64,000 nt of DNA from Isoetes taiwanensis (lineage: Eukaryota; Streptophyta; Lycopodiopsida; Isoetales; Isoetaceae), in the NCBI GenBank assembly GCA_021234155.1, contig JAJEKV010000055.1:2165090-2229089 (forward strand), in the 5' to 3' direction. Shown piece after piece: positions 2,950 to 41,358 of the stretch. A program made the position numbers and the translations under genes. The notes under the pieces are model-generated. The model worked only from the letters and a program-made list of their open reading frames with translations. It was not told the DNA's origin and made no database searches. How positions within the stretch are numbered: position 1 is the stretch's first letter; each line of letters opens with the position of its first letter.

Positions 2950-3046
2950 ACTTGATAACAACTACCGACAGATGACATACAGTTGTGGGGAGAGATAAAA
3001 TAGACAATCTTTTGAAGCAACTTCAACCTCTTTGCAACAAAAGAAG

Positions 3047-3118
3047 GTATTCTTATGCTCAAGTTTAAATTGTAACTATTTGATGCTCTTTATTTTCTAA
3101 AAATTTGTTCTGTTGTAG
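3047..3118 (+). other. Intron of the MULE-like gene (72 nt)
   Basis: Donor AAG|GTATTC and acceptor TTGTAG|GA. Splicing joins NLLKQLQPLCNKRR to IRQWINKSL in frame. Confidence 0.6.
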
Positions 3119-3430
3119 GATACGTCAATGGATAAATAAGAGTCTTGAAAGTAAAGTCCACCAAAAAGATGAAGTTGGAAAGATCATATACTTAAAACAG
3201 CACTGCAAATACCAATTCTTCCACGGTTCCAAATTTCCATACCAACTTCATGATGAAGAAAATGGTCGGTGCTATATCTTCAAAATGTCCACAACAGGAG
3301 CAGGTTCCGGAGTCGAACTCGTCAATCGAATGCGTCCAGGAGGAGATTTAGAAAACTCTTGGGTACATTTTGACCACGTAAAACGCACTGTTGGGTGGAC
3401 TACTTTAGCATGTCATGTGTATGACCCAAG

Positions 3431-3509
3431 GTGATATTCTTATCTATCATGTTTTTCACTTGACATTTCAAACTATTTATTTACTTACTGTAATTTCTGA
3501 AATGTGCAG
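3431..3509 (+). other. Intron of the MULE-like gene (79 nt)
   Basis: Donor CCAAG|GTGATA and acceptor TGTGCAG|T. Removing it joins HVYDP to MRCLLTIATCDMK through one split codon, which bypasses the in-frame stop that otherwise follows the donor. Confidence 0.65.
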
Positions 3510-5288
3510 TATGCGTTGCCTTCTTACAATAGCAACATGTGACATGAAAACGGAGGATACGGAAGCTCAGATAAAGTTCTGGACAAAGCTAAATAAAGTT
3601 ATGGCACTAAGGAACTCACCACCTGCTCAGTTCAAAGGATTCATGGCAGACGAAGCTCAGGCTAATTGGAATGCAATTCGGGTTGTGTTCAATGATGGCC
3701 AGCCCATGGAAGGAAAGGAACGTGGCTGTAAGTTCCATTGGGAACAATGTCTTCAACGACACACAAATAAGTACATATTCCAAGAGCATAGACAAGAGCA
3801 TCTAAATTTGTGCAGGGCATGGAGATCAGCACCCACTGCAGAGGATGCTGAGGTTGCATTCCAAAATATTGTCAGTTGGTGGCCTGGCAAAACTAGCCCT
3901 TCGCATTATAAGTTCATTAGGCTCGTGGCTAGCATGGTGGCATCAAAGAGTGAGCAGATGGGGCAACTTCATGGAGGATGGAGTGAATCTAGCAACTGCA
4001 GCTCAAATCCCTAACACTAATCTATCAGAATCTGTGCATGCTAGTTGGCTAGCATCAAGAGGGTACGTGAATAAATTATCCTTGTACGATGCATGCTTGT
4101 ACGATCTGACAGAAGCTGTGCTGCAAAGTGCAAAGTGCAAAGCACATAGAGAACACAATTTTGTTGGAATAGGTCCAGGGATGGATACCTTAATGCGCAG
4201 AATGGGCACTCCAGTGACTAGTAACGTTACTCCATCTGCTTGTGTCGGCCAAGCAAATAAACTCGGCAGTTTTACATAGTGGTTTAAGGCCCATTCATGC
4301 AGGTTCAGGAGGAAACAATCAGACTGTGCTAAAAAGGACCAGAGATAGCACGGAATATAACAAGGATGTGGGTTCCGGTAGCCATCGTCCAGACAAGAGG
4401 GCCCATACTCGGTCTAGAGTTAGGGTAGATGCTTCAGCAAAGCGGAATATAATCTTTGATGATGCTACATACCTTGTACAGGAGTATGATTTGCTGCCAG
4501 GGGAATGGGCTATTAGAAGAACGAGCCCCGGTAGTAAAAATAAGATGTCAAGGTAGAATAAAGTCCAATGGTCGCAGATGCAATGCTGAAATTAATAAAG
4601 TTCGTACAGAGTCTACTATTGCACCATGCTTCACTGGACAAAGGAAAGTAAATGGGAGAGAGGTCACACAAAGGTTTTGGTTTTGTCCTCAAAATGTGCA
4701 GCATACTTACTATCCAAATTAGCAGTATCATAGCCATACCAACTCGTCCAGCAGATTGGCCTGTGGCAAAAGGAGTAAATATAACTAGTGCAGAGTTGGA
4801 AACATTGGAGAGAGGGAACTATTCCGTTAGAGGGATTACCCCACGGAACTCAATGCCCGATATGGCTAGTGTGAATTCTTCTACTTTGACCAGCTCTGTC
4901 CACTTCATGGAACGTTATGGCAAGCGATGAACGCATTTTAGGGAAGCTTTGTGTAGAAGCTGAAACAAAGCTTAATCAAGCTTTACAACTGGAGTGTGAT
5001 ATTGAGTCTGTCAAGGTCAATATCACCAACAGGGATGTTGCTTACCAGTTGCGTCGACCAGATGAAACTTATACAGTGAGGGTATGCAAGCATCCCACCG
5101 CATTATGCCCGGATTTCATGGGTAGAGAACTGAAAAGGATATACATTCCATGCAAACATCCTCGATGTAATGATTTGGCGAAAGTCCCAAACCAATTTAC
5201 CCCGTGTTTTCTTGGACATCATTCAGCCTGTATTGACAGAGGATGTTCTCCAAAGGGTCCTCGCCTGAGGAACAACAGTTCTTGGTAG

Positions 5289-6014: not shown

Positions 6015-6019
6015 TGTAG

Positions 6020-7602
6020 TGTGACGCTCCCTGAATATATACTACGGACCCCTGGGTATACATACGGGACTTTCCTCCCATGCACCATCTCACCATGAGG
6101 AGGGCTCCCTCCATCCCGACCTCCCGACCGCCTAATAGAGACGCCGCGGGTGAAGGACACCTGAGGGGTCATTCGCCCACGCCGATGAAGCCTTCACGTC
6201 CGCGGAAGCATGAATACAAGGGTTAGCACGCAGCATAAATCATATACAAATAGCCACCTCGAAGGGTGGCGCATCCATCCAAATACCAACAACAAAGAAT
6301 ATGCATCTAAACTAAGAAAACACCCAAAACCCCGGTTCTACCCCGGCTCCGACTCTAGTGGGGGAACGACTGACGGCTGGGTCTCGTGGAATCAGCAGAC
6401 CGAAGTCTTGGCATGGCGCTGGCCGGCATAGAACATCGGCTAGGGTTGTCCACTCCATCCATCCTCCTCCCGCACACTTTGGTGATGGGTCGATTCACGC
6501 TATGGCTTCGCTATAGCCTTCCGGAGACGCAGTCTCAAGGTATCACCCTTTGAGCCTACTCCAGGTTCATGACACCTGGTCCGATGAGGCAGGTTGGGGA
6601 AGCGTCCCCTTCCAGGATCACAGTGGTTCCATGGGTGAGCTAGAGAACACGTGCCGCATCAGCGACCCCCGCATCCATACCCAACTTACTCACCCTAATT
6701 CTACTCAAAGTGCATGGTGCCCCATACGGGTCACACCACTACACCCAGGGAGTGTCAGACCTATACCCGGCCCTCCACGTGACCGGCTATCAGGCCTAGC
6801 TCACTGTAGGAGTCCCAGGAGCCTTTTATGCTCGTGCAAGACCCCACCCCCTACTTCACCACTGCGTCCTTTATCTGGTGCTAAGCCAGACCATAGTGCC
6901 TATGACCCGGTGGGCTCTTGTGCACAGGCCGAACTAGTAGGGTGTTAAGGAACACTAGGAGCATTCTATATGCTAGTTCAGAGGCCTCTACCCCCCTTTA
7001 ACCCCTCAAGCATCGAAACTCATCAACTAACTCATAGAGACATCGACCCTTTCATAACAGAGCATCATTCATAATTGAACAATATTCCTAGTTACCAAAG
7101 AAGGGGTTAATCTGAACCAAAGCTAGTCGACAAGAATACCAAAGTATTATCCTACAATTTGCAAGTTAAGCTACCATCGACCAAGAGTGTTTCGCTAGAG
7201 CCCGTTGTCAAGAGGCGCTTCCATGGTCTTTGCCAGACCGGGGTGGCAGCGACTAGCTAGCGGTGTCTTGGCGATTGGGTTCAAAGAATCGGGCTCGAGC
7301 GCTTAGCCGCTTCGGTCTTTGGTTGGGTCGAAATTGGGGTGATATGAGGATGGCGCCTCCCTTTGGTGGCCTAGTTTAGCAACCCTCATGTTTGGCCATC
7401 CCAAGTTATGCCAAATGGCTTTCCCACTATGAATTGACCTAATCACATGTCTTTAGATAATTATCCTTTATAATTAAGTTAACATAGCTAATTAAATCCA
7501 TTGTGGCCAACCCCCAGGTTATCATACCCTAGGTGACGTACCTATACTAGGTGATTTGTCAATATATTTATAATATACCGTATAAATACTTGGAACGTCA
7601 CA
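6020..7602 (-). repeat. Left (3') LTR of the gypsy element
   Basis: 1,583 bp, starting TGTGACGCTCC and ending GGAACGTCACA. A second copy, split in two, lies at 17443-18304 and 31943-32672. AT-rich blocks (for example about 6210-6330 against 17640-17755) are essentially identical, while GC-rich blocks differ strongly. No transcription start or polyadenylation site could be placed. Confidence 0.9.
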
Positions 7603-17442: not shown

Positions 17443-18304
17443 CGTGGCGCCTCACGAATATATACGACCCCCTGGCCGTATACATCTGAGGACTTTCCCC
17501 TCCCATGGCGACCATCTAAGCCATGGCGCGAGAACCCTCCATCGACGGACCGTCCTTTCCACGTAGAGATGCTCGGGTGAAGGACCGGGAGGGGTCATTG
17601 AATACACGCCGATGGGCCTACGTCGTGAAGCATGAATACAAGGGTTAGCACGGCAAAGATAAATCATATACAAATAGCCACCTCGAAGGGTGGCGATCCA
17701 TCCAAATACCAACAACAAAGAATATGCATCTAAACTAAGAAAACACCCAAAACCCCCCTGTTCTACCCCTACCTCGACTCTAGTGGGGGGGGACGACCAA
17801 TGTGGGTCTCGGGGAATCGGCCAGACCAGAAGTCTTGGCATGGCGTTAGGCGGCATAGAACATCGGCTAGGGTTGTCCACTCCATCCGCCCTCACGTGCA
17901 CACTTTGCGGATGGGTCGATTCACGCTATGGCCGCTATAGCCTTCCCTCGAGACGCTTGATCTCAAGGTATCACCCTTTGAGCCTACTCGGGTTCATGAC
18001 ACCGGTCCGATGAGGCGAGGTTGGGGAGGCGTCCCCTTCGGGATCCGCTGGTTCCATGGGTGAGCTAGAGAACACGTCTTGCATCAGCGACCCCGCATCC
18101 ATACCCAACTTACTCACCCTAATTCTACTCAAAGTGCATGGTGCCCCATACGGGTCACACCACTACACCCGAGTGTCGGACCCCCTTGCCCGCCCTCCAT
18201 CGGCCCGAAGCTATCGGGCCTAGCTCACCGTAGGAGTCCCAGAGCCTTTTATGCTTTCGTGCAAGACCCCACCCCCTACTTCACCACTGCGTCCTTTATC
18301 TGGT
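17443..18304 (-). repeat. 5' LTR, inner part
   Basis: Matches the 6020-6884 half of the other LTR and ends at TTTATCTGGT, exactly where the nested transposon begins. The match resumes at 31943 (GCTAAGCCAGACC). The inner edge near 17443 is degraded (GTGGCGCC against TGTGACGC). Confidence 0.85.
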
Positions 18305-18336
18305 AACCATCATTCAATTAAATTGGGATTATGTCT
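18305..18336 (+). repeat. Left terminal inverted repeat
   Basis: 32 bp, perfect inverse of 31907-31938. Starts AACCATCATTC. Confidence 0.93.
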
Positions 18337-19286
18337 ATTCCAAAATCATTATATAAGCTATTTATTGACCATTATATTGAATTTGCACTGAGTTCATTTT
18401 CGGGCTAGGAAGATGCATTTTATGTTGAAATGCAAGGGCATCCAAATATTCGGTGCAAATGACCCATATTATGAAAGAATGTTGGCAATATAAAAAGTAG
18501 GAAATTGCTTATTAATTGCACAATCACCGACGACAACGAAATCTAAACGTTGAAATTGTAGTGTTTTCTGAATAAATAACAGCAAACAAGTTGCTACAAA
18601 GCAGAGATTTCAAAGGTCAAATCGCTGCGTGGGCGCGATTTTATTCGCATAAATAGCGTATTATAGTGGAACATAAACTTTAAAAACTAATCCGAATCAT
18701 CGTCGACAAAATATTTGCGGCAGTCTTTGATCCCTGTCGATCATGAACAAACCATGCTCTGGATTCCATATAAGATGGATTACAACATCAAAGGGATCAG
18801 GATAGAAGCGGGCCGGGATTCATAGCAACGACATCAAGCCGATCCCGAAGTTCTATTTCTAGCTCAAGGCATCTGCAGAGGTCCGCATGGTTCATCTGGC
18901 GGGTAATAGAATGTGCCATAATAACAAGCGTAAGGCGAAGCCGGCCGATGGTTTGCCAATTTCATGCATACGTATTTATAGACACCTAAATTATTGGCCG
19001 GTATATACATACAAATTATTGCAAGTATAGCAAACCATACACATAATATAAAAAAGAACAATACGCATACCGTAACTAATAATCTTTGATATAAGAACAC
19101 AATATATATTGAAAGAGTTTGGTGTAAAGTATATTTCATATTCAAAACTTTTTGGAAAGTGTATTTCCTGTATACATATATATATCAAAAAGTTCCCTTT
19201 CTAGAACGATCTTCTCTAGGTCCCCGCAATTTCCCTGTCCGATTAAGTTGCGTATAGTGTTTGTATCTCTTGACCTTTTTCTGTAG
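18337..19286. other. Subterminal region of the DNA transposon
   Basis: Largely non-coding. One short minus-strand stretch (about 18690-18880) encodes protein-like pieces (IWNPEHGLFMIDRD, DLCRCLELEIELRDRLD) that are not joined by any frame. One copy of the palindrome family is at 18620-18643. No shared gene was recognised. Confidence 0.35.
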
Positions 19287-19837
19287 CTATTTAGGTACGA
19301 ATCTTACGACAAAACGAAGCGAGAAGTCATCTTTGTCAAAATCCTCGGGATGATAGGATGGTGGATTTAGTGATGGATGATTGAAGCAACACTTCAAGGC
19401 GTCATCATCAACTATAATGATGTCTTCCTTCTCTGAGCATTAAGTCATCCATCATGTCGCTCAAGCATTTCACAAATATTTTTTACATGGGATCCTTGGG
19501 TTATTGAATGACTTACATTTGCTCGATCCCAAACGGATGCCCAATCTCTATGTAACTTTCGGGAACTACTCTCAAAACTTCACCGTATATTTCTATTCTC
19601 CATCGGCGACCAAATTGCACAACGAAATAAAGTGAAAGCTTGGTCTAACATCTCCTTTCCATATCTGTGCGCGGATATACCCATTTTAAGATATGTCTCA
19701 AATGGTTTACATGCATACCATGATAAAGGGAATTGTGCTTTAGGTAACGTTGCGAGCACTCCATTCAAATCGAACACCGAAATTTTGGAGGAAACTGGAT
19801 TAGGTGCAGAATAATAAAGCACACACTTGTGAGACAA
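19287..19837 (-). pseudogene. FCP1/SCP-like HAD phosphatase-type domain, likely inactive
   Basis: Frame 19837-19580 contains ISVFDLNGVLATL (19780-19745), then KPFETYLKMGI and FRCAIWSP, followed in a shifted frame by WASVWDRANV and, near 19418-19290, KEDIIIVDDDALKCCFNHPS and NPPSYHPEDF before a TAG at 19287-19289. This order (DxD-like box, a PF..YL segment, IWS, VDD-x-K...NP) is that of the FCP1 homology/NLI-interacting factor domain, which dephosphorylates proteins such as RNA polymerase II tail repeats. The first motif is DLNG, with Asn replacing the second catalytic Asp, as I recall for a family of plant FCP1-like proteins; catalysis is therefore doubtful. At least one frameshift lies between 19580 and 19430. 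Confidence 0.6.
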
Positions 19838-19851
19838 GGAAAAAGAAAATT

Positions 19852-19960
19852 GAAATCGCGCTGGCGGCGATTTTCAATTGTTTGAAGAATTGAAATCGCG
19901 CTGGCCCAGCGATTTTCAATTCTTTGAAGAATTGAAATCGGCGCTGGCGATTTTCATTTC
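19852..19960 (-). repeat. Three tandem ~40-bp hairpin units inside the FCP1-gene coding region
   Basis: The unit TTGAAGAATTGAAATCGCGC plus its near-complement recurs at 19852, 19892 and 19934. The middle unit forms a near-perfect palindrome of about 46 bp centred near 19905. In the minus-strand frame the repeats encode RFQFFKELKIAGP-like peptides. Confidence 0.7.
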
Positions 19961-19972
19961 GTTTGAATAACA

Positions 19973-20033
19973 TACCTTTACGGTTCTGTTCAACATCCGC
20001 AATGCCTTTACGGTTCTGTTCAACATCCGCAAT
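19973..20033 (-). repeat. 30-bp tandem duplication
   Basis: The unit CCTTTACGGTTCTGTTCAAC... (30 bp) occurs twice, giving IADVEQNRKG twice in the minus-strand frame. Confidence 0.8.
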
Positions 20034-22031
20034 GATGAGCTTACTCTCACTTTTGTCTTGATGGTTCGCGGAAGTGTCGACCACATCACTTAGTGTATGA
20101 ACTATGGTTGATACTTCATTACTCTTTATGCTAACCCCGACTCGAGCTTTCCAGAATCCATTGTATCATCTAGGATTTTGTCTTCTTCGTTTGCGTTACC
20201 TACATCCACTTCGATCGGGATTTTCCAATGTGATTGGAATGATAGGCACGCGCTCTCGGCGATAGTTAAAGGCTGTTGCTTGTCGATATTCTTCTTTATG
20301 CCCTCTAGATGCTTTCTCATTTCTTCGGCTCTGCAGCCCGGATCTGCGGGTAAATTCGGACTTAGAGCTGGAAGCTTTATTTTTGCACTACCTAGCGGAC
20401 CCCTAGGTGCCACCTCTAGCACTTTCTCGAAAAAATATCAAGGAAGTCCTTGGCTTGACCATCGAGAGACCACACTTTGGCATTTCCTAGCTAGCTTGAG
20501 CTTCCCGCCCGACATAACCTCCAACATGAAACTCCCAACACGTAGACTCTAAAGGGCGAAGGCTTCAATCGAAAAACGAAAGGGCCAAAGAAAACCCGTG
20601 ATTTATTCAAATTCCCCTTATGCGCCGTCCAGGTAGCTCATACTTGATTGGTGAACAAAGGGCGAGGGTCGACCAGTTTTCTTCTTCCTCTTCCTCTTCC
20701 TCTTAAGTCCTCTATAAGGTCCACATCCACATCTGCAGTCCCTTTCCCTTTGTCTTCGCAATTGGATTCGACATAAAAACATTCTTCATGGGGGTTCATC
20801 TAGCCATAGCACTGCCAAAGCAATCTTCTCTCCTTCTGGTTTCCCCTTGAGTCTTTCATATTCTTTATCATCCATAATGGCTATCATAAGGACTAGCATA
20901 TGTGAGATCTTACTTTCGGTACTAAGCTCACTATCTTTGTTTTCATCTATCATTCTTTGCTTGCCTCATCACTTTAATGCATTGACATCATTTGCGCGAG
21001 CTAGTGCATATCGTAGGGAAATGTCGGAGTGGCAAAATCCGCGATAGTATAATGCATCTCGGTCGTCAAACCATCGCATGTGTTGAAGAAGGTCTTTGTA
21101 ATCATCCCGTGTCCATCTCGTTGCCACGCTATCAAGAACAAATAGAGTGATGTCGGTTGGCCCTTCACCCACCTCGGCATGGCACACTTATAACCGGTGG
21201 ACACCTTATAGAAAAAAGGAGACTTCGTCTCTGCCGTCTTCTTCACCAAAGCAACTTTTCTTTTTTTTTAGGTCGGGCCGCAACTTTTAGGTGAATCCCC
21301 TTAAGAGTTGCCACATTCTTAAGCCTTTGTTTGCTTCACAAAATCTTTTGACCAAAATACATATTTCTTAATGTCATCATTAGATACGTTGTACTTTTGC
21401 ATTAAGCCTATCTCGATAACATCATGTCTCCCGAGAGCCTTTTGCGGTTCTTATGCCAACGGCTTTTTTTTTGGGACTTTCATATTTTTATCGATTAGCA
21501 TGCATCTTGAAGATGTCAAGTGCTTTTTCGCAGACGCGTTTTCTTGTAGATAACTTCCTTTCGATGCAACTATCTAGAGCGATTAATTACGCATCATCCA
21601 ATCCTTGTGCCTTTCTCATTTTACGTGATATGTATATCAAAATAGGCGTATCTTGCGGAGGAAACACGCCATACGAATCGGCAACTTCTTTTCCGAATAG
21701 AGCGTCCCAAAATTAGTTCCACTTTTCCCATACACGGTGGGAAGAAAAACAATCTTGCGGGCATCCTTTGGCACCGTTTTGCTCTTACGTACCGGCTTGT
21801 GCATCCTTTTTCTTCTTTGATCTAGTGCCCTTGGTCTTGTCCCCATTATGGTTTGGCCGCGGTGTGTCCTTTCTAGTAATTTGAATTGGCACTCTTAGAT
21901 TGCCCTTGTGCAGTCGGCATTGGTTTCCATATTCGATCCATTGTTTCTGGCGTCGCCGCCTGCTCCACATACTGGTTTCGCAAAATATGGGCCGTTAGAT
22001 AAAAAATAAACGGTAGCGAAAGTAACAATAT

Positions 22032-22302
22032 AAAACAGCGTCGGTGGCGTTTTTTAGTTAACTCCTGATTTACAAGAAAACGCCACAGTGCGATTTCTTC
22101 ATGATGAAGAATTCGCGCCAGCGCCGTTTCTTTTGTAATCCGTCCACAATAACAACATAAAAACGCCCGCTAGCGCATTTTACGCTAATCACGTTATTTA
22201 AAAAAGCGGCCGGGCGCGATCTCTTCATGTATGCCATATGAAGAAATCGCGCGGCGCCGCTTCTTGTAAATACGTGATTAAAAACGCTACCGCGCTGATT
22301 TG
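22032..22302. repeat. Array of seven short GC-core palindromes
   Basis: Imperfect palindromes of about 20-24 bp with consensus arms GAAATCGCGC / GCGCGATTTC start at 22032, 22077, 22109, 22158, 22201, 22243 and 22279, spaced 32-49 bp. Some spacers also pair (GATCTCTTCAT at 22218 with ATGAAGAAATC at 22238), so larger stem-loops are possible. Other copies of the same family are elsewhere in the transposon, and none was noticed outside it. Confidence 0.7.
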
Positions 22303-23490
22303 GAACGCTATGTGTGGAACATAAAATACCTTTTGTATAGGAATGTCTTTCCCATGTCATTCATGGCGCCCGATTTTAGGCTAATTCTGCCGCACGTTGT
22401 GGAGCCACCGAGGAATCGGCAATTTACGGATGAATACGATCTATAGAATAACCGATTTCCGTTTTTTGTGCTTGATCAAAACCTTCAGCGCCTCCATCGA
22501 ATCTTTGGCTATCTATTATCATGAAGTGAATATCGAGGTTGCCAATTAAATCTTCAAGTTTATTCCATATCAACACCTTCTTCGTCTTCATATCAAAAAG
22601 GCACCACATCTGCCCAAGCATTGGCACATCACCCCGGTTTTCTATCATCTTTGTTGACTATTTCCATTATGCGTTTGCTTGTGCGTATCTTCTGGCGACA
22701 AACATAGCCTTCGTGGACTGAAAAAGCCCGGCGACATGGATAGGATCGCGTGAAGCTAAGGCCAAGTGGATGCTTGTCGGATATTTCTTGAGTTTGCTCA
22801 TGGCCTCTAACTATCTCGCCTTTGTCATCATCACTAGTCATATCCAGAATGCCTAGAACGTCACGGTGTTTCCACTGGCTCTAGAACTTGCATCTTCCTT
22901 CTCTTTTAAAGCTTGTAGGTACGGACTAGGTTTGGGCTTGTCTTGATTGCTCTTCTCACGGTGAGAGACCTTCACATATTTTTTTTGGTGTCAATAGATC
23001 ACCACCCGACCAGATAAATTTGAAGAGGTTATCTGCGGCCTCATCCGTTCTTAGGGCAGTCTCTTTAAAGGAACCGCAATCAGCTGCGATAATTTAACTT
23101 CTTCAATACTTTTTATTTTTTCAATTCGCTTCAAGTAATACGGAACGGTAAGAATCGTCCCCGTTCTTCGCGATGTGATCGAATACCTTGTTTCTTCATT
23201 TGATCTGTTTCCTTAACTCTAGACATGAAAATCAGATCTGTCTTCCGCTTAGTCTTGAAGATCTCCACATACCATTGAGCCCTCGGTAGATCTTCTTCGG
23301 ACATGGAGGCTCTACCTGAGCCTTCATTATTTCGGTCAGATCGTCAATGGTCTAACGTGTGCCAAATCACTCGATACATCTTCATCCGTTCTTGGTTTTT
23401 CGTGCGGATGTCCACGGACCTACTGCTGACCTTTGCTTTTCTTTTCACATTTTAGAAGATCCTGAAAGTTACAATCATGTGGTGAGTAAT

Positions 23491-23615
23491 GAAATCGCGC
23501 CGAGCGCGTTTTGATAGACGCCTTACTTTCAAAAACATAAATTGTACACAGGAAAGTAGCAGAGACAACCAAAACCAATCATCTCTACATTATAAATCGC
23601 GCCGAGCGCGTTTTT
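23491..23615. repeat. Two further copies of the GC-core palindrome
   Basis: GAAATCGCGCCGAGCGCGTT at 23491-23512 and a near-identical copy at 23593-23615, about 100 bp apart. Confidence 0.7.
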
Positions 23616-25073
23616 AAGAGGGGCCCTACAGACACTTCTCTTTTATAAGAGACATACTAGGCTACAAAAAAGACTTGTCAAAAGAACTGGAGAATACAGA
23701 ACAAAAGACTTAAACGGTCTACATTATACAAAATGGAGAATACAAAACAAAAAACATATCGGAGTACAGGAGAAGATTATAACAAAAAACACACAAAACA
23801 AGGTAGCAAAAGCAGTAGAAATGACACGTAAAACAATATAAAAGGTAGACAATACACGAGACACGCATACCACGTAAAATACACGGTAGAAAAACATCCT
23901 AAAACCTAACAATAAAAGGACCACGTAAATCAATTACAAAACAAAAAAGCGGATCAATTACCCGAGGCGCTTTTGGATTTGTGCTTTCGCTTGTTCAAAG
24001 ACCTCCGGCTTGGGATTTATGCTTTAGGTCGTCGCCCACCTCTACTGGCGCCTCGCGGCCGGATCCTCTAGGCATGTCATAGAAACGCAAGTCGCGATAG
24101 TATGAGATCAGGGGTTTTGGTTTAAACTTATATGTATCGTTCATAATCTAGGCCGCCGATTTACAACCGTAAATTCAAATTCGCGTCCTTTTAAATTTAT
24201 ACCGCCTTAATTAACCGCCCGTCCGGCTCATTTACAAATTTAAATTGTGTTTTCTTTTTTTAGTGCAATTTCAAGATAACAATTAATTATTAATTTCAAG
24301 AAACGATATGTGGCAATCTACTACCACCTAATCGCCACCCTACTATCGGGCGCCAAGATCATTCCTACTATCGGCCCCAAGAACAATCGACTATCGAGCG
24401 CCCAAGATCCGTTCGATCGATCAAGATTCGTTCAATCCCATTCGACGATCAAGCGCCTTCAATCCATTCGATCGAGCGCAGCTTCAATTCCCATTCGATG
24501 TCTGGCTGAACTATGGTGAGTTCGAATGCATTCTCTTGTTCTCTATTTTTCGCCCTCTATTTTTACAATGCATTCTCGGTTTTTTATCGGTGTCGAGAAG
24601 AATGCTATCTTTTAACAAAAAACTTGAAGCGCCGAAAGTAGGCTTATGTAAAATCGAAGATCTGAATCCAAGTTCTATGTGTCATGGTGTTCCTCTTGGA
24701 AACAGTTTACGTAAGATTTCCATTATAAACCTGCAATTATGAAGATGAGGCTCTTCCAAGAAGACATCCCTGGCGTCTACATTTTGGTGAAAGCGTGGGC
24801 ACATTTGTAGCATGGCCAAAAGAACGTCTGAAAAAAGGTATGTATATTTGGATATTCAAAAATAAAGAATATATCATAACATCTGCGTGATGTTGTGAAT
24901 TTTGAATACGTGATGGTCTTTAGTCTTATCAACCCCATGAAACTACAAATTAATGAAAATATGTAGTTTCTTGGGGTTGGTCATAATCGGCCGGAGGCTA
25001 TCACGAGATTCAATGTTTTCGACATTGCATATAAAAAAACATAATAAACTAATAACGTAAAAGTATAGTGCAA
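23616..25073. other. Transposon interior without a supported gene
   Basis: A/C-rich and AT-rich sequence; short frames only. Around 24350-24500 a loose repeat of GATCGA / TTCGATC words occurs (for example ATTCGATCGAGCGC). Confidence 0.35.
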
Positions 25074-25848
25074 AATTACGCCAGCGCCGAGTTTGTATTC
25101 ATATTCCAAAAAAGTATATGTACATTTCTTCTTACGCAAAAAATGCGCCAAAAGTAATTTCTTTCTATCTCTACAATATGTCACACAGGCCCACTTCATC
25201 GCCCCAATCCAAAAGTCCCACCTGAACCACCCCCGATATGACAGGATCCTCATCTTCCTGCTTGAATGTCGAGTCTCCAAACGCAGTGTTGTATCGATCC
25301 TTGATACTATAAATCAAATCCTCGTTACTTATTTGTTGGCATGAGCCTTACTAAGAGCATGAGGAGCCGCGATATGTCCGTGAGATGCGATGGAAGTGTT
25401 CCCATGGCCCCGATACGGACCGCCTAATGGATTCTCCAACTCTCTTTGAACGTTTTGAACAAAGACAATCAAGTAATATCTTGTCACAGGGTCGAGTTGA
25501 TGGTCGCCCGGGGAAAGTGTATTTGATCTAGAACCAAACGATTGTATTTGAACTAGGAACAGCCGATTAATCCGCGTGCATAAGGAAAATCCATGGCACT
25601 AGAACGAGAGAAAGTAATTAGCAAATAATATATTACTCTCCCCCATAAAAACGATTCAACATACATAATTCAAAACGCCGCCCGGTAGCGCTTTACATTT
25701 TCACAGATCTATTTCACACGCCACCGGGCGCGATTTGTATAGAGCCGTATGAAATTGAAAAGCCAAACTAAAACGCTACTGGCGCTTTTGATTAACCTAG
25801 TGGAAAAAGCGTGAACCCAAAAATAGAAATGCGCCAAGCGCCGATTTC
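25074..25848. repeat. Five further copies of the GC-core palindrome
   Basis: Copies near 25074, 25672, 25716, 25770 and 25826. The last four are spaced 44-56 bp, similar to the array at 22 kb. Confidence 0.65.
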
Positions 25849-26026
25849 TCCCATTCCAAAGATATTATTCTAACAAAATGCATAATGCATAATGCGAATG
25901 CAATCGTAATTCAAAATATAAAGCCAGTTAGAGCAGATATATAATAATAATACTCCTTGTTTAGTTCAATATTTAGTTCATTGTTTTAGTTCATTATTTA
26001 GAGCAGATAGAGGAAGAGCTAGTGAA

Positions 26027-26072
26027 GATCTATGATCTATGATCTATGATCATAGATCATAGATCATAGATC
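26027..26072. repeat. Perfect 46-bp palindrome made of 7-bp repeats
   Basis: Left arm is three GATCTAT units; right arm is the exact complement, ATAGATC units. Symmetry centre is between 26049 and 26050 with no loop. Could form a cruciform. Confidence 0.9.
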
Positions 26073-26146
26073 ATAGATCATAGAGCAAGATCATAGAGCA
26101 GATATGAAATAGAATAACTTCATTATTTTAGATCATTAACTAGAAC

Positions 26147-26204
26147 AGATAGAGGAAGAGCTAGTGAAATAGAATAACTTCATTATTTTAGATCATTAAT
26201 TAGG
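26147..26204 (+). repeat. 58-bp direct repeat, left copy
   Basis: Begins AGATAGAGGAAGAGCTAGTG and ends AGATCATTAATTAG. A nearly identical copy lies at about 27480-27536, with partial copies at 26003, 26100, 27456 and 27541. Confidence 0.8.
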
Positions 26205-27455
26205 TTCCCAAAATGTTGTTGGGGGGTCGTGTAACATAAGATTTTGCAAGGTTTAGGAATGTATTCGTATCTAAAAATGGTATTTTGCTGACTCACAAAT
26301 TTGGGTTTTGGTTTGGCAATGGTCGAATGGGTTGTATTGGTTTTTTTTGGAAGGGCTAATTTTTAGAAGTGGTGTGGTGTCGATGCCTTTGCGTCCGCGT
26401 GGGGCGGATGGAGGAGAGCAGAGGCAGTTCCGACGAGAGCTGCGGAGCATGCTTTTGCCGATTTGTAGGGTAGAGCAGGATGGAGCAGGCGCAGGAGGTG
26501 ACATGGCCATGGCAAAGAGCTTCCGCCAGGAGCCAGGTTTGGGACTTGATTCTGGTGCCACGCTATAGCATGTGCATCTTTTCTTCTGTGTATGTCTTGA
26601 AGAGGGTAAATTAGGGATTTCGTCTTCCGCCATAGCCAGAAGCTTATTTTGCATTCTTCTTCTCCTCATTCCGGCAAAAAATATGCTTGGCTGGTTGGCC
26701 ATAACCCAATGGCGGAGGCACAGAGGCACAGAGGCAGTTCAGGGCACAGAGGCAGAAGCACTCATGCAAAATCCGATAGGCCAGACTCAGAAGCCCTCAT
26801 TTTCTTTCTTCACAAGCATTCTTTCTTCAGAAGCATTCTCAATTTGGTTTTTGCAGAGGTTTAGGTGCAGTGAGATTTCTGCTTGCTCTGATGAAATCGT
26901 TTTTTTCTTAAGCCATCTTTTTCCAGCTGCTTACAGAGTGTGTTTCTATTTGGCTTCAACAGGTTATGTCTTAAGGTTTTCATCTTGAGGTTTTGTGGAA
27001 CTGCCTCTTGGGCAGGGGGTTCAACTCCCCGTGCTTCATTATGGTATTTCTTTGTTTATTCTGTTGTGAAGCTGCTGTAGCAGGTGCAGCAATTTGTTCT
27101 GCAGTTTATGAACAGGGTTAGTTTCTTCCTTCATTTTGGTGGGTCGTTCTGTAATTTCCTTTTGCAAGTGACACAGGTGTGCACAAGATTGCTTCATAGC
27201 AGGCGTACTGCTCTAACTGTATGGAGTTGGTTAGTTATCACTTGTGTGTATTTGTGTGTATGTATGGAGTTGACTTCAATTGAATACTTCTTCATGAACC
27301 TTAGGCTGACGTGGAAATGGGGTTTTGACCCCATCTTGACTTGGGTTGGACGGCTGTGCTTTTGGGATATGGCATGTGCTTGGGTATATGCCATATTTGG
27401 ATGGCTAGGATGTAGCGATTATAGGCAGGCTTGGGGCAAACAGTTATAAAGTGCT
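26205..27455. other. 1.25-kb segment bracketed by the direct repeat
   Basis: GC-richer than its surroundings and flanked by copies of the 58-bp repeat, so it may be an insertion or a captured fragment. Open frames are present, but none looks like a known protein. A tRNA T-arm-like sequence, GGGGTTCAACTCCCC, is at about 27016-27030. Confidence 0.4.
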
Positions 27456-27575
27456 AGCAGATAGAGGAAGAGCTAGTGAAATAGAGGAAGAGCTAGTGAA
27501 ATAGAATAACTTCATTATTTTAGATCATTAATTAGAACAGATAGAGGAAGAGCTAGTGAAATAGAATAAGAGCAG
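27456..27575 (+). repeat. Direct repeats, right copies
   Basis: Two and a half copies of the AGATAGAGGAAGAGCTAGTG unit, one of them full length. Confidence 0.75.
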
Positions 27576-27939
27576 ATCATATAGGCAAGATCACAGAACA
27601 AGATCATAGAGCAGGATCTATATATGAAGGTGGTAGGGCAGTTTAGGACTGATGCATGTAAAAGTAAATAACATGCTTTATGGAAAATAACTACTTTATG
27701 TAAATAACAGTAAATACTAACCCGAGAAACCTTAAGAAGTGATTCGAGAAGCCTTAAGAAGCCGAGAAAAAGCAATAGCAGCTAATTTGGAGAAAAAGCA
27801 ATAGCAAATGGTAGAAGCTTTTTAACACAAAACCAAAAGTTATTCAAAGTTAGAGAGATTGTAGAGAGCCTAAAAAGCCAAAAACCGTAAAAACCTTGTA
27901 TAGAGCCTACAAACCTTGTATAGAACCTTGTATTGAGCC

Positions 27940-28230
27940 GAAACCCTAAAGCAGATGATTGTAGAAGCCTTCTGCATATAGAAGCCGAGTTTAAAGCAGA
28001 TAGAAGCCGAAAAGTCGAGATTGAAGCAGAGAAGCAGATAGAAGTCGAGATTGAAGCCGAGAAGCAGATAGAAGTCGAGATTGAAGCAACGAGCGACAGT
28101 GTCTTCAACGAGATTGAAGTCGAGATTGCTCGAAAGCGCCAGAAAAGCCGATTGCATGCAGAGATGCTCGAAAGCGCCAGAAAAGCCGATTGCAGATAGG
28201 TCGAAAGCGCCAGAAGAGAAGATCGAAAGA
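27940..28230 (+). repeat. Two adjoining minisatellites
   Basis: A 30-bp unit (GTCGAGATTGAAGCAGAGAA...) occurs about three times from 28010 to 28090, then a 27-bp unit (CTCGAAAGCGCCAGAAAAGC...) three times from 28130 to 28215. The plus-strand frame 27933-28199 reads EIEAEKQIEVEIEAEKQIEV, which could be an exon of the transposase gene or a chance frame over the repeat. Confidence 0.7.
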
Positions 28231-28339
28231 GAGACAGAAAACTGGAAAAGTTGGAAAGGGATTGTAAACTGGAAATAATAACTGCTTTAAAAAATTCGTA
28301 CCGCGCCATAATAACTGCCGCGAAAATTTATTACAAGGG

Positions 28340-28640
28340 TTATAAGTTATAAGATTTAAGGTTAATAATTTTAAGGTTAATAGATTTAAGGTTAATAGTT
28401 TTAAGGTTAATAGTTTTAAGGTTTATAAGTTAAGGTTATTAGTTAAGATTAATATTTTTAAGTTCATAAATAAGGTTATAAGTTTAAAAGTTTATGAATT
28501 TGAATTTAGAAGTTGTTTCTAAGGTTACAACATTTAAGGTTATTATAAGTTAATATATTATAGGTTCACTTATTATTATTATAGATTAAGTTATTATAGG
28601 TTATTAAGGTTATTATTAAGGTTAACTTTCATTTAAGAAC
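28340..28640 (+). repeat. AT-rich TTTAAGGTTAATAG-type tandem repeat
   Basis: A word related to TTTAAGGTTAATAG is repeated about ten times with decay. It directly precedes the first transposase frame and probably lies in its 5' intron or leader. Confidence 0.6.
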
Positions 28641-28707
28641 ATGTTAGGGAGATGTTATTTGGATATGCTAACTTACTATAGGTTTTTATGCATTTTAGGT
28701 CAATGGC

Positions 28708-29022
28708 ATGCAAAATGCTAAATCCCCCAAGGCCCCCAATGATGGTGATCAAGGCAAGGAAAAATCCCCAACTAATGAAGATGACAAAGATGATGGGAAA
28801 AGAAAGGAAAAGACCAGAAATGAAAAGGATGAAGATGACAAAGATGATGGCAAAGGAAAGGAAAAGACCTCAAATGAAAAGGATGATGCCAAAGGAAAGG
28901 AAATTGTACTTTATACTTTCGAAATGATTGGAAAACAAGAAGGTCAAGATCCCGCATGCATGCAAATGAGAGGCGAGGGAGAAGGGATTATTGTTCTAGC
29001 GGATCATATCAATGCAAAGGAA
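28708..29022 (+). CDS. Transposase N-terminal segment, charged tandem peptide repeats
   Basis: 105 residues from MQNAKSPKAPNDGDQ. Three copies of DDKDDGKxKEKTxNEKD follow, probably a disordered nuclear-localising region, then IVLYTFEMIGKQEGQDP. It stops at 29023-29025, and the continuation is in another frame. Confidence 0.55.
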
Positions 29023-29762
29023 TGATGAAAGATTAGGGGAGGACAAAGTTAGGTGTGGCAATCTCAAAATTATATGACAATTGGAAGGAAAAGGGTTCGG
29101 GCAAACAAGAATGCCTAGCTTGTGTGAAGCAACTAGAGGTTCCAACTATTGTTGCATGGCCTAGGGACAAGATTCAACAAGAGGGGAACTACACGTTTCC
29201 TATAGATGTAGAACCATTGTCAACAATGTTCACACAATTGTAGCAAGAGGCCACTTCCAACTTTCAAACATTATCCCACCAAAAGATGCAAGTCGAGTTA
29301 TGGATTGTTCTCCACCCCGAAGCTATGATGAAGGTTAGAGGAGGTGAATGTTGTTGGGCTTCTTGTGTTAGAATGTTCACAATAGAGGAGTTGGTGGGAG
29401 CAAGAGCTACATATCAGGGAACATAAGTGTGATAGCGGAGGAATTTCATGTACACCATATTTGGCTATGCAATTCGGGATGAAAGATCAAAGAAGAAAAG
29501 ATTCCCATTGAATGGAAAGTGGATATGTTCAAAAGCATGATGGTTATACATGGAATTCCAACCTCTTCTTGGCACAAACCGCAAAAGAGACATGAAAATG
29601 GTAGTAAAATTGCATTGCATGGGAACACTGGCCCGTAAGGCCTACCTCAAGAACTATAGTGCAAAGGAAATATTTGAAAGATATGTGGATTTCAATGCGA
29701 GAAAACATGCCACATAAGAGTAAGAAGGATGAAACAGGGGTAGAGTTATTGTTGAAAAGAGA

Positions 29763-30287
29763 TTGCCATCCCATTGTACCCAGAAGAGCATATTAGAGGA
29801 AATAAATGCATTGCTTCGGGAACTTGGAGTGGCCTCTATATCCCAACCCAGTTTTAGTAGGCTATGGAATAGGCATTTCAAGCATGTGACCATAGCAACT
29901 TCAAACAACTTTGCCAAGTGCAATTTATGTGCTAAGTTGAAGGAGACACTAGATAAGATCAGGCAACCAAGTCTAATGGCAAAGATAAGGGAACATATGA
30001 AGGACCATATGACGGATCAACTATCATGTAGATCAACTTATTGGATGTGGAGGACCTTATCTGCAATGGAACCTAATAACTATCTATGTATTATACATGA
30101 TAAAATGGACCAACAGAAGACTTGTCTTCCACAATTCAAGTACATTCCTAAGTCATGTGGAAGATCATATCCTTTGCAGATTTCAATGACTGGGGCAATA
30201 TTGCATGGGCAGTCTCAGACCTATTATGACCATTTCGGTTTAGAGTTGTGGAGTGATGGTCCGTTTTTCACATTGGGAGTATCATGA
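29763..30287 (+). CDS. Transposase central segment with the first catalytic Asp
   Basis: 174-residue open frame. Contains FSRLWNRHFKHVTIA, a Cys pair NFAKCNLCAKL (zinc ribbon-like), CRSTYWMW, and IIHDKMDQQKTCLPQF with the proposed first Asp. The upstream segment 29330-29760 has further protein-like sequence in another frame. Confidence 0.6.
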   Translation: MPSHCTQKSILEEINALLRELGVASISQPSFSRLWNRHFKHVTIATSNNFAKCNLCAKLKETLDKIRQPSLMAKIREHMKDHMTDQLSCRSTYWMWRTLSAMEPNNYLCIIHDKMDQQKTCLPQFKYIPKSCGRSYPLQISMTGAILHGQSQTYYDHFGLELWSDGPFFTLGVS

Positions 30288-30512
30288 GGTGTTTAGAAAA
30301 CTATGAGAAGGGTTACAATGGTCACCTACTGGATCCTCTGACTAGCCCGGGCACTACATAGTGCATTGTTGGATGGAACCCCTAATAGTATTGAAAAGTT
30401 TAGCAAGGCAAGATTTAGGAGGAATGGACCTAATGAACATGTTGGAGCTTCAACATCTCGGTGCTAAACCTCGAGATCTGCCCGAGAAAAAGCTCCTCTT
30501 GCAACTAGATAA

Positions 30513-31003
30513 TTGTCTTTGGTCAAAATAAGAACAGTGCATGTTTTCTTTCCTATCCTACTTAACAAATTGTGGGGTATTTTTGAAAGAGTCAATTTGG
30601 GGTTCCTAATGCCCGGACATACTCATGAGGATGTGGATGCATTGTTTGGAAAATATAGTCATGTATTGAGACAACAGACAGTTACCAACTTTCCCAGGCT
30701 ATTGGAAATATTTCATGGATGTACAAATCCATCTCCTATAGGATCTATCATAGAAGAAGTGCACGATTGGAAGAGTTTTGTGGATGGTTATGCTCGACAT
30801 GGAAGGTCATTCTAGACCTCTTCAATTCACTTTTGGGTGAGAGAAGGGATTCCAATCATGCAATGGAAAATGAGACCTTCAGAGGAGAAGTGGAGAGGTG
30901 GGGCAGAAATTTGGCCATGCTAGGATGCAAATGGCAAGCCTATGATACCTCTGGTCAACCAAAAGCTCTAAAACCAATCAAGAAGTCAAGCAATTGGGCT
31001 TGA
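30513..31003 (+). CDS. Transposase segment with the catalytic Glu (GHTHED)
   Basis: Starts within RTVHVFFPILLNKLWG, then FLMPGHTHEDVDALFGKYSH. After about 100 residues the frame shifts at about 30800 and continues to 31003. The proposed second Asp (LQLDN, 30508) lies just before, in a frame that ends at a stop near 30530. Confidence 0.6.
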
Positions 31004-31606
31004 CTAAGGATGGCATCAATGACTACATCAAGCATTGGCAAAACTAATTCAGATGACACTAATCGTGCATTGATAGATTATTGGAAGAAGGTGATCAACT
31101 TGTTGGATGAGGTAGACACATCCTCCGAATCACCGCTAGAAGGGTGGTTCCCTAAAAGTAAGTGGAAAACATTAGTCGGGTCTTTGGCCGAAGATGATGG
31201 TACCATTAGTAGCATTGTGAAGGCATATGCTCCTCCTCAATCGATAAACACTATGTTGGTCCTAAGAAGGATAGGCCAAAATATTTAGGCATGGATTGTT
31301 ATGAACCTTCTATCGACGCGGAGTGCCACCAATTTGTAGTAGTAAAACCAAAGAGATCTAGAGACCTATCCAAAGTGGTTGGGATACACTATCTCGGATA
31401 TTTGCAAAGAAGAAGGTGGTGTTAACTTCAATAAGGTGCTTGGCGTGGAATGGTGGTGTCCAAGACATCGCTTGAGTAATGTCACCGATAAAGAAAGATA
31501 TTCAGATTGTTGGACAAAGAGGTGGAGGAGAAATCCAAGTGATCCCGATCTTTGGCTAGACATTGAAACCGTATTGTACTCTTGGGACTCCAAAAACTAT
31601 TCCTAG

Positions 31607-31906
31607 TAAAACAAATGAGAGTTACAATACCTCAGGATATAAGGAATAAGGTTCTCATATCCTTGGGGATGCTAGTGGAAAAATGAAAAACAGTTACTAT
31701 GTATCTTTTCTACAGTTAATAAAAGTTGTGTACTACTTGAGTTCCATGATATATGATTTTGTAATTTGAAGTTAAGGTGTGAATTTATATTCCCGCGTGT
31801 GATTATATGTTAAAGTCTATTCTAGTCTAAGGGCAAATAAGTTACTAAAAAAGTGAATTTAACAAAGTTACTAAAAAAGTGCAATATAAAATTTATCCCA
31901 AAATTA
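31607..31906. other. Right subterminal region of the transposon
   Basis: AT-rich, non-coding. Two copies of AAGTTACTAAAAAAGTG lie at about 31838-31880. No GC-core palindrome here, unlike the left half. Confidence 0.4.
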
Positions 31907-31938
31907 AGACATAATCCCAATTTAATTGAATGATGGTT
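31907..31938 (-). repeat. Right terminal inverted repeat
   Basis: 32 bp, perfect inverse of 18305-18336, ending GAATGATGGTT before the TGGT duplication. Confidence 0.93.
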
Positions 31939-31942
31939 TGGT

Positions 31943-32672
31943 GCTAAGCCAGACCATAGCGCCTATGACCCGGTGGGCTCTTGTGCACAGGCCGAACTAG
32001 TAGGGTGTTAAGGAAACACTAGGAGCATTCTATATGCTAGTTCAGAGGCCTCTACCCCCCTTTAACCCCTGTTTACTGGAAACTACTGAACTAACTCATA
32101 GAGACATCGACCCTTTCATAACAGAGCATCATTCATAATTGAACAATATTCCTAGTTACCAAAGAAGGGTTAATCTGAACCAAAGCTAGTCAGACAAGAA
32201 TACCAAAGTATTATCCTACAATTTGCAAGTTAAGCTACCACTGACCAGTGTTTTGGCTAGAGCCGTTGTCAAGAGGCGCTTCCATGGTCTTTATCTTGGG
32301 GGTGGCGGCCCGACGGTTAGCGGTGTCTTAGCGATTGGTAGCGGTTCAACAATCGGCTCGGGCTCTTTTAGCCGCTTCACCAGTCTTTGGTTGGGTCGAA
32401 ATTGGGGTGATATGAGGATGGCGCCTCCCTTTGGTGGCCTAGTTTAGCAACCCTCATGCTGGCCACCCGGGTTATGCCAAATGGCGCCTTCCCACTATGA
32501 ATTGACCTAATCACATGTCTTTAGATAATTATCCTTTATAATTCGGTTAACATAGCTAATTAAATCCATTGTGGCCAACCCCCTAGGTTATCATACCCTA
32601 GGTGGCGTACCTATACTAGGTGACGTGTCAATATATTTATACGTATACCGTATAAATACTTGGAACGTCACA
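31943..32672 (-). repeat. 5' LTR, outer part
   Basis: Continues the LTR from GCTAAGCCAGACC to GGAACGTCACA and is followed by the TGTAG target duplication. Confidence 0.88.
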
Positions 32673-32677
32673 TGTAG

Positions 32678-35600
32678 ATGGCTTGAGTCTTCAAGATTAG
32701 GTTTGATATTATCGATGGAGTGATACCTATATCTTTGCTTATTTCAGAAAAGCTGGAGCAGGAACATTTTTGCTTTTTCTTTCATTCTTTTTTTTCTTTG
32801 AAGTTCATTTGTATTTTATCCTATACCCTCATCCAAAAATAATGGGGAGGTAGTAGAATAGTTTCTTTGTGGGTGTATATGATTTGAAATTTTATGGCTG
32901 CATGGTCTGTTTTGTTGTCATTTTCTTGAATGTATTTAAAGATTTTATCGATGCATGTTGTTGCTTTATTGGAATGCACTTGGTCTTCGTCTTTCGTATT
33001 AGACAATCAATTGAATGTTATCTCTTGATTGATTCTGCAGGCACCATAGCTGCTGGTATCACATCCATTCATCCCTCCATAGGCTCCTGCAGCACTATAA
33101 CTTTCCACTTGCACAGTAACTTGTTGCAACTATTTTCTTTTAAGGAGAAAGAAACATGTTTCTGTAATTTCTTCAATGCCTTATTAATGTTACATCTAAT
33201 CTGTATCTTGAACTGTGAATCAAATTCTAAATTCCAAATTTTGCTTGTCGGTTTTGTATTTTGTAGGCGAGATTTTAATTTGTAGGAAATTAGCTTGTTG
33301 GATTCGAAGCTACAGGAAGTTGTAGGTAGGAACTAGAAATTAGCAGGTTTGTTTACGAAATACAGGAAATTTTCCTTGAGTAGTTCAAAAATTTCCCGAA
33401 CCAAGTCCTAAGAGGGCAGTTATATAAATAGTGCACATCAAGCCTTAAATTTGAATGGGACCTCTAGTATTTTTTTAGGGGCAATTTTTCGACACGCAAA
33501 TTTTTGGCCTGCCATTCTTTTGCATGTCAAAGTTTTTGAAAGACAGACTTAAACTATAAGAATTATAAGGATAAGATAGAATAGAATGTATTTTTACTGT
33601 CTAGGGATGCCTATGGACCCAAAGGAAAAAAACACCAAAGTCATGGATAATATATTTTAAGTCTTGATAAATATAACTACAAAACAAAGTTCAAAATAAC
33701 TCATAGTCTTAGTAATATTAATATATTTCACATTGACATATTGCCATTGCCAATGCAAAAAATAAGGAAAATCGTTATGTGCAATTTGTTGTTCAAAATC
33801 GAAAATCTTTATGCAAAAAACAAAGTTGCCCATTCAAAAAACGAAAATTAATCTATTCAAGAGATAAATGCTATGAAATTCCTTTGTGTTGAGTGGGCTT
33901 GAAGCTGATTAGCCGAATTGGTCGGATTCAGATCAAATTGCATGAAGATAAAGAAGCTCGATGCTGGGTGGGAAAGAATGGAAATAAGATAGATAGATAG
34001 ATAGTATTTTAACGTCACGCCACTAGGCAGCATCCAACTGGACATGTGACCACACACCACACTGCATTGCTTGGTTGGGGTATGCAAAAAACAAAGTTGC
34101 CCATTCAAAAAACAACAAGGTGCTACGCACGAAGGGTTGCCCTTCTGTGTTTCGAGAGGATGCTTGCATGCTTTTTGTTTTCTTGTTTCGTAATGGATCT
34201 TCTTTGTTTAATATCGAGCCTTCATTTTGTTGTTTCGTAATGGATCTTCTTTGTTTAATACCGAACCTTCTGAATGCTACAAACATAGGAATTCATTTTC
34301 ATAGCCCAAAAGTTCTTAGATTTCACAACTTGTGAGGTTAATTCATACAACTAAAGAACAAAAGAGAAGAGAAACTACTTGATAACTTCATTGTGATGAA
34401 GAATGCATTGGCTCTCATGCATTAGAATACAAAACATTCAGTTGGTCATTTTTTCTCATTTGCACCTAAAGACAAAATATCAAGTAGCATAGTATTTCTA
34501 GCAAAAAGAACATTTTTTATGAAACTTTAAAACAATGATCCACAAACTTCAGCTCCACAGAAGAATGATCTTCAACAATAACATGGTGGTCCTTGAGGAA
34601 AAGATGACGTCTTTTCTAGAACAAATAGGTCTTTTCTATTCTATTCTTTTGGTTAAGTATGGTGCTTCCATGGTATAAGTTGTGGTGTTTCTATGACCAT
34701 TCTTGTGTTTTTGGACATCTCTTGGGTGCACAACTCTCATTTCCTTACTTTTCAGGGTTGCATTTGAGTGTTCAAGAATTTAGAAACCATTGAATCACAA
34801 AAAATCTTAAGGTAGCATCAAACTTCCCAAAGAAATTTTAGGCAATATCTTTTCCTCGTAGACTAGGTTGTGAAAGCAATTGGTAATTGTGAATCTCCCA
34901 CATTCTTCTACTGCAATGTCGCGGACCATAACCTCATAATTGTTATGCCACATTTATCATAATCATGTCTCACATATGACAAAACCTCTTGATTCCTAAG
35001 TATTTTAGAAAGTAAACAAAGGAACAATTTGGCTCCTTTGTTTGTTCCTTCTAGCATGTCCGAGTCACAATTTTTGAGAGCTATGAATTATTGGCATAAG
35101 GAATCGATCAGTAAAATAAGGGAGATATGATAAGATGGTTAGGGTAAAATAAAACTATATCAATCAATGGCATGAATCATGTGAATTGGTCAAGGATTTA
35201 TCCATTGGCCTGATTTTCTTGCATGTTTTGCTTGGCTGCTTTTTGTTTGTTCGTTTTTGTTGTTTTGGTTCATAGGCTCGCGGCATTCATCCTCAAATGT
35301 TGCAGTGCAATTATATCCCTGAACTATAATTTACACCAACCATGATCCTATATGCAAATTTCATCCTAATGGTCGACAACTATTTGGACTTATGAACCTT
35401 AGGAACTTTGCTACAAATCTAAGAATTAGCATGCCAACAAGTTTATTCAATGATCTACACATCCTTTGTGGATATATCGAAAGAAAACTAAGCCACCAGG
35501 TTTGTTACACTAGCATAATTCAAAAATGATGCAATTCATCAGAGAAAGATACTGCTTTTTTATAAAGCTAAGCAAGGTGGATTTTGCCTTCACAAATGAT

Positions 35601-41122: not shown

Positions 41123-41125
41123 AAA

Positions 41126-41358
41126 ATTAATCTATTCAAGAGATAAATGCTATGAAATTCCTTTGTGTTGAGTGGGTTTGAAGCTGATTAGCCGAATTGG
41201 TCAGATTCAGATCAAATTGCATGAAGATGAAGAAGCTCGATGCTGGGTGGGAAAGAATGGAAATAAGATAGATAGATAGATAGATAGTATTTTAATGTCA
41301 CACCATTAGGCAACATCCAACTGGACATGTGACCACACACCACACTACATTGCTTGGT
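41126..41358. repeat. Source copy of the segment duplicated at 33.8 kb
   Basis: Matches 33844-34077 with a handful of differences. It includes 140 bp upstream of the SINE tail plus part of the SINE. Confidence 0.85.

Follow-up and report, generated by a model that had tools for sequence, protein, structure and literature searches.

A probable two-gene DNA transposon with a DUF7869 transposase, Sola-like in its traits, inside a gypsy element of the quillwort Isoetes taiwanensis

A 64,000-nucleotide stretch of the Isoetes taiwanensis genome (GenBank assembly GCA_021234155.1, contig JAJEKV010000055.1, positions 2,165,090 to 2,229,089; hereafter the window, with positions counted from its first letter) holds a gypsy retroelement in which one long terminal repeat (LTR) is split by 13.6 kb of further DNA. 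What is this insert, how could it have reached its site, and does it belong to a named kind of mobile element? An earlier sequence-only reading had proposed a large DNA transposon with 32-bp terminal inverted repeats (TIRs), a 4-bp target duplication, a DDE-type protein and a second gene, and each part of that outline is supported here. The insert is very probably a two-gene cut-and-paste DNA transposon that duplicates 4 bp of its target and is served by a transposase with the Pfam domain DUF7869. A domain of unknown function from amphioxus and quillwort thereby gains a likely job, DNA transposition, and the element behind this assignment has ends known to the base, a target duplication of measured length and an empty site.

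Ends, empty site and relatives of the element

The element and its target site are defined by the following features:

18305 to 31938, no strand assigned: complete DNA transposon, 13,634 bp (TIRs, duplicated target and empty site, and six relatives, retrieved in full, that share these ends)
18301 to 18304, no strand assigned: left target site duplication, TGGT (read in the sequence and by empty-site comparison)
31939 to 31942, no strand assigned: right target site duplication, TGGT (read in the sequence and by empty-site comparison)
18305 to 18336, plus strand: left 32-bp TIR, starting AACC (100% match to 31938-31907; 685 + 685 exact genome copies)
31907 to 31938, minus strand: right 32-bp TIR, ending GGTT (reverse complement of the left TIR)
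6020 to 7602, minus strand: uninterrupted LTR of the host gypsy element, the empty site (LTR alignment)
17444 to 18304, minus strand: split LTR, first piece (LTR alignment)
31939 to 32672, minus strand: split LTR, second piece, its first 4 bases being the duplicated TGGT (LTR alignment)

The boundaries proposed by the sequence-only reading are borne out to the base. The two TIRs are reverse complements at 32 of 32 positions, the element begins with AACC and ends with GGTT, TGGT flanks it on either side, and its flanks, once joined, align to the LTR at 6020-7602, which had been put forward as an empty-site control. A point absent from the earlier reading is that this LTR is the sister of the interrupted one: the intact and the split LTR are the two LTRs of a single, complete minus-strand gypsy-type element at 6020-32672, whose right-hand LTR carries the transposon. 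A 5-bp duplication, TGTAG, borders the outer ends of both LTRs (6015-6019 and 32673-32677). In the interval that the LTRs enclose, frames on the minus strand have matches to integrase (rve), Tf2-1-like SH3 and chromo domains, a set found in chromodomain gypsy elements, which confirms the proposed location inside a gypsy LTR. Because the empty site is the sister LTR, it was identical to the target at the time the retroelement entered; the two pieces of the split LTR are 85% and 91% identical to the intact LTR today, and the DNA transposon was therefore inserted later than the gypsy integration.

Further copies with these TIRs and with 4-bp duplications, which the sequence-only reading had proposed to look for, are plentiful in the searched assembly (1,658,258,908 bases, 1.66 Gb, in 1110 pieces). 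Exact matches to the 32-bp end number 685 + 685, one count per orientation, while the same sequence written backwards, used as a control, has 0 + 0; a query with the left 196 bases returned 772 candidates, and the 40 of them that were scored all matched. Six further copies fetched whole (12.1, 12.3, 12.6, 18.9, 12.0 and 16.5 kb; L009-L020) all have exact ends and a perfect 4-bp duplication of their own (AAAT, CTAT, GATG, GTTT, AAAC and ACTT). The first 100 of the 1370 ends form 25 neighboring plus/minus pairs, with 17 spaced 12.0-14.0 kb apart (median 12,392 bp), 6 at 18-27 kb and 2 at more than 100 kb, the last two being left out of the duplication test; none of these 25 pairs is closer than 12 kb. 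One pair, C5, is flanked by CTTT, and 20 of 22 more pairs, including all 6 of 18-27 kb, are flanked by an exact 4-bp repeat and none longer. Together with the window copy and the six whole copies, an exact 4-bp duplication is thus present in 28 of the 30 complete elements examined. The duplications have no fixed sequence, and the base adjoining them on the outside is mostly C or G (20 of 28 on one side, 19 of 28 on the other).

The family numbers at least 685 insertions that have kept one end exact, with short derivatives seen in none of the 25 neighboring end pairs; were all 685 copies 12.4 kb long, they would by simple arithmetic occupy ~8.5 Mb, or 0.5% of the assembly. The window copy exceeds the usual 12.4 kb because of the stretch at 26203-28218, a segment of the large intron presumed for the transposase gene that is rich in tandem repeats and mostly unaligned in the other copies. 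Four pairs of copies are 97.5-98.3% identical in their right part, which points to fairly recent movement as judged from sequence.

Two further observations concern the distribution of the ends. The counts are equal in both orientations, yet for many of the 100 ends listed an exact partner is missing from the vicinity. On contig C2, three left ends at 110578, 138734 and 161061 (L027-L029), 28 and 22 kb apart, share an identical 10-base flank, and this set is a duplicated segment or an assembly repeat.

The transposase and its relation to Sola

The transposase gene runs rightward:

24638 to 24724, plus strand: probable exon 1 of the transposase gene (residues 21-49 of P0005 by tblastn, E 0.005)
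29205 to 30968, plus strand: core of the transposase, spread over broken frames (residues 234-826 of P0002 by tblastn, E 6e-73)
30953 to 31597, plus strand: C-terminal region of the transposase (residues 222-434 of P0001 by tblastn, 55% identity)
30099 to 30101, plus strand: codon of the first catalytic aspartate, in IIHDKMDQ (column D524 of alignment A1, D in 28/28 rows reaching it)
30508 to 30510, plus strand: codon of the second catalytic aspartate, in LQLDN (column D667 of alignment A1, D in 29/29 rows)
30627 to 30632, plus strand: last two codons of GHTHED, E and D, either of which may specify the third acidic residue (first position E in 26/29 rows and D in 3/29; second position D in 29/29)

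Even without correction, the window frame at 30513-30812 matches DUF7869 (PF25273) with an E-value of 1.1e-17 and 64.7 bits against a curated cut-off of 26, so the lead to this domain given by the sequence-only reading was correct, and its GHTHED motif lies within the match, at 30615-30632. The probable first exon recurs in copies L011 and L013, which are matched by P0005 residues 21-87 at an E-value of about 1.5e-8. A protein database query with the 785-residue read-through of the transposase retrieved 44 DUF7869 relatives, and a query with the short exon found nothing. The relatives, from Branchiostoma and other sequence sets, share the domain and the same D..D..GHTH[ED]D pattern; P0002, for example, is 37% identical to the window transposase over 99% of the query. 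For P0002 a DDE-type RNase-H fold is predicted in which the acidic residues occupy catalytic places, and this fold supports the DDE-type assignment made earlier; the third acid has two candidates, the E/D position and the invariant D next to it. The likeness to retroviral integrases, IstA, TnsB and the Mos1 transposase lies in the predicted fold only, at 7-13% identity. A PDB sequence search with the family transposases gave no match at an E-value of 1 or better, and their Pfam and NCBIfam scans gave no named transposase family.

These features suggest how the element could move. The transposase would bind and pair the 32-bp inverted ends, cut the element out and join it to a target cleaved with a 4-bp stagger, and repair would convert the stagger into the 4-bp duplication; because of the predicted fold and its conserved residues we infer this chemistry, excision included. 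The window copy would have entered the LTR once the gypsy element was already integrated.

Which superfamily does such an element resemble? Excerpts of PMC10741241 describe Sola elements as having a DDD transposase, a 4-bp duplication, TIRs of 11-1124 bp and lengths mostly of 2-9 kb, with some above 15 kb, and those of PMC9033089 and PMC10741241 place Sola in a moss. As far as these excerpts go, the window family shares with Sola the 4-bp duplication, TIRs of tens of base pairs, the size and a seed-free plant host, and its transposase, with E/D or the adjoining invariant D as third acid, may be of the DDD kind as well. The fit to Sola that the sequence-only reading saw in the 4-bp duplication thus extends to TIR length and size, and possibly to the acidic residues, as a likeness of traits. 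We put at about even the prospect that the element is a true Sola member (Sola1, 2 or 3) in a lycophyte and that DUF7869 is just a second name for the domain of the Sola transposase. In its favor, the measured traits fit those in the excerpted Sola descriptions (PMC10741241, PMC9033089). On the other side, the dictyostelid Sola2 duplications follow AWWT in the excerpt of PMC3627910, a preference that the window family does not have (1 of 28 duplications fits); a phosphatase-like second gene such as the one described below is not mentioned in the Sola excerpts; and the comparison covered traits. We file the element as a Sola-like DUF7869 transposon, DUF7869 being either Sola or a separate superfamily: in the first case the Pfam name becomes tied to a known superfamily, in the second the superfamily is an undescribed one.

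Ginger, CACTA, Kolobok and piggyBac each differ in a defining feature. Judging by excerpts of PMC10741241, Ginger elements have TG...CA ends, TIRs of 40-270 bp and duplications of 4-6 bp, as opposed to the AACC...GGTT ends and 32-bp TIRs found here, and CACTA elements have CACTA/CACTG ends and a 3-bp duplication, neither of which the family has. The TTAA duplication of Kolobok and piggyBac occurs in 0 of 28 cases. Academ elements make duplications of 3-4 bp and carry extra nuclease or helicase genes.

The second gene and other DUF7869 genes

The second gene claimed by the sequence-only reading is present on the minus strand, from about 22.9 to 19.3 kb, so that the two genes are divergent, the transposase gene pointing rightward and its partner leftward:

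19296 to 19825, minus strand: NIF/FCP1-like phosphatase domain (read-through matches PF03031, E 3.3e-12)
20792 to 21631, minus strand: middle part, no known family (read-through and copy comparison)
22505 to 22918, minus strand: N-terminal part, no known family (read-through and copy comparison)

Its phosphatase-like character was not part of the sequence-only reading. The uncorrected frame of copy L013 also matches PF03031 (E 2.1e-7, 31.2 bits against a cut-off of 21.8), and the uncorrected frames of the window copy and of L017 alone do not. The three segments are found in the window copy and the six other whole copies; two of three partial copies have them complete, and one has no middle segment. 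Active NIF/FCP1 phosphatases carry a DxDx(T/V) active-site motif. The second gene matches the domain and keeps an IIIVDD motif, whereas motif I reads DLNGV; each of the 15 independent copies compared has both FDLNGV and IIIVDD (17 rows, since two copies are represented by two rows each). With motif I altered, catalysis is doubtful, and the phosphatase-like domain is probably inactive, as far as motifs can tell. The rest of the protein has no family above cut-off in Pfam, NCBIfam, PHROGs or PDB sequences, and a ParB-like reading, suggested by eye, finds no support in the same four sources. A search for literature on phosphatase-carrying transposons gave nothing relevant among the matches listed.

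The protein that ends in this domain would probably be an accessory or regulatory factor; as a guess, it may control how the element transposes or is transcribed. Its significance can be weighed by comparison with other DUF7869 genes. A genome search for the domain gave 9902 first-look candidates, and the 150 that underwent scoring were all above cut-off, most without an internal stop; 14 control genomes gave none. Three long-frame genes (L085-L087, on contigs C1018, C1081 and C1034; open frames of 987, 857 and 784 codons) were examined together with 10 kb of surrounding sequence. Their DUF7869 domain is nearly complete, and their transposases are 21-22% identical to that of the window and about 27-33% identical to those of Branchiostoma. 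As in the window element, a divergently transcribed second gene adjoins each. These three neighbors are related to one another (46-87% pairwise identity), and in place of a phosphatase-like domain they carry a weak, sequence-based resemblance to ParB: two that were scanned match NCBIfam TIGR03764 (ParB-type; E 0.0021 and 0.041) and one of the three matches DUF6551 of Pfam, which we take to be ParB-like (E 0.0086), all under curated cut-offs, and one PDB search gave nothing relevant. By blastp the window second gene has no similarity to them, and an hhalign comparison of alignments A3 and A2 gives an E-value of 0.37 with very shallow profiles. A divergent partner gene thus recurs beside DUF7869 genes, its identity differing between groups (phosphatase-like here, weakly ParB-like there), which is a testable oddity. 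At L085-L087, the sequence separating the two genes or close to them holds many palindromes around TATTCCGGAATA.

Could the second gene be a passenger, a captured host phosphatase gene with no role in transposition? We judge this plausible, if a little short of an even chance. The larger part of the gene has no homologue among 7992 scored candidates, motif I departs from the active-site motif, and the three other genes have a different protein as divergent neighbor. Against capture without function stand the phosphatase motifs kept in all 15 independent copies compared, the three segments maintained in the whole copies, and the recurrence of a divergent partner beside other DUF7869 genes.

That DUF7869 elements form a separate, undescribed superfamily, sharing merely the 4-bp stagger with Sola, is possible, and we hold it only tentatively. 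The term DUF7869 was not found in a literature search, and a search on the transposase motif gave unrelated papers only, among the matches listed; the transposase scans named no known family. The only other domains on the 44 relatives are PF26133 (5/44, precomputed), Ulp1 (3/44) and laminin-type domains on one. The Ulp1 protease domain belongs to the lancelet relatives P0036, P0040 and P0041 and was not seen in the selected window-element frames that were scanned. Against a superfamily of its own, the missing name counts for little, since the comparison was made outside Repbase.

A wider proposal, which seems to us unlikely, takes DUF7869 proteins for the transposases of a eukaryotic group, so far undescribed, of large two-gene cut-and-paste transposons that is greatly expanded in a quillwort. 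The divergent partner would be ParB-like in one branch and would end in a probably inactive FCP1-like phosphatase in another, and the transposase would have a barrel of Tudor/KOW type at its N terminus and a BAH-like region at its C terminus. Were this reading true, the two proteins might act as chromatin readers that segregate, steer or license transposition.

Three loci are filed in metagenome-assembled 'bacterial' genomes, on contigs of 4.3-6.4 kb, and are probably mis-binned eukaryotic DNA. One of them, L024, has an open 947-residue DUF7869 frame at 595-3438 of a 4.3-kb contig under a cyanobacterial metagenome-assembled genome, probably through eukaryotic contamination. These loci show no unambiguous terminal repeats, L024 having imperfect 21-nt arms at 34-54 and 4071-4091. 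A bacterial or viral origin was rejected, since the 'bacterial' loci are probably mis-binned, viral contigs gave none, and no viral fold matches at an E-value of 0.001.

Condition of the copies and other repeats of the window

Several results weigh against reading the element as a working cut-and-paste transposon. Both genes are broken in the window copy, and the frames are also broken in the six other copies read. Between copies there is no clear third-position excess (6 copies for the transposase, 9 for the second gene), which leaves selection on today's copies undemonstrated, and no movement of the element was seen. Two of the 30 complete elements, C24 and C284, have no duplication. The fold model is that of the relative P0002 (37% identity to the window protein; mean pLDDT 77, pTM 0.55). 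Finally, the 10-kb stretches around L085-L087, possibly too short, contain no exact-seed inverted repeat with a 4-bp duplication around the gene, while other inverted repeats are present; with those ends not found, the link between DUF7869 and the 4-bp stagger rests on the window family.

The broken frames may in part be caused by assembly indels. Excerpts of PMC8566536 describe the source assembly as built from nanopore reads with Illumina polishing. The near-identical copies L011 and L015 differ by 64 substitutions and by 44 insertions or deletions of 1-2 bases; that such small indels almost equal the substitutions in number suggests residual nanopore errors. That the element itself is a misassembly or a chimeric junction can practically be dismissed: the nanopore origin and the many small indels between copies speak for it, whereas the same ends recur 685 + 685 times and 27 other elements, inserted in unrelated sequence, have junctions of this type with 4-bp duplications of their own. 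Neither finding that the sequence-only reading had named as a refutation, the lack of a second copy with these ends or misassembled junctions, was obtained.

The window contains further repeats. A young copia-type element at 55143-61125 has RVT_2 and copia gag domains and LTRs of ~853 bp that are 99% identical; CTAGT flanks it on both sides if the LTR ends are set one base beyond the match. A 161-bp direct repeat (33844-34004 and 41123-41283; 98% identity, 7.3 kb apart) possibly represents parts of another element's LTRs, and a frame at 62727-63467 with a very long SLSLSL run reflects a long simple repeat.

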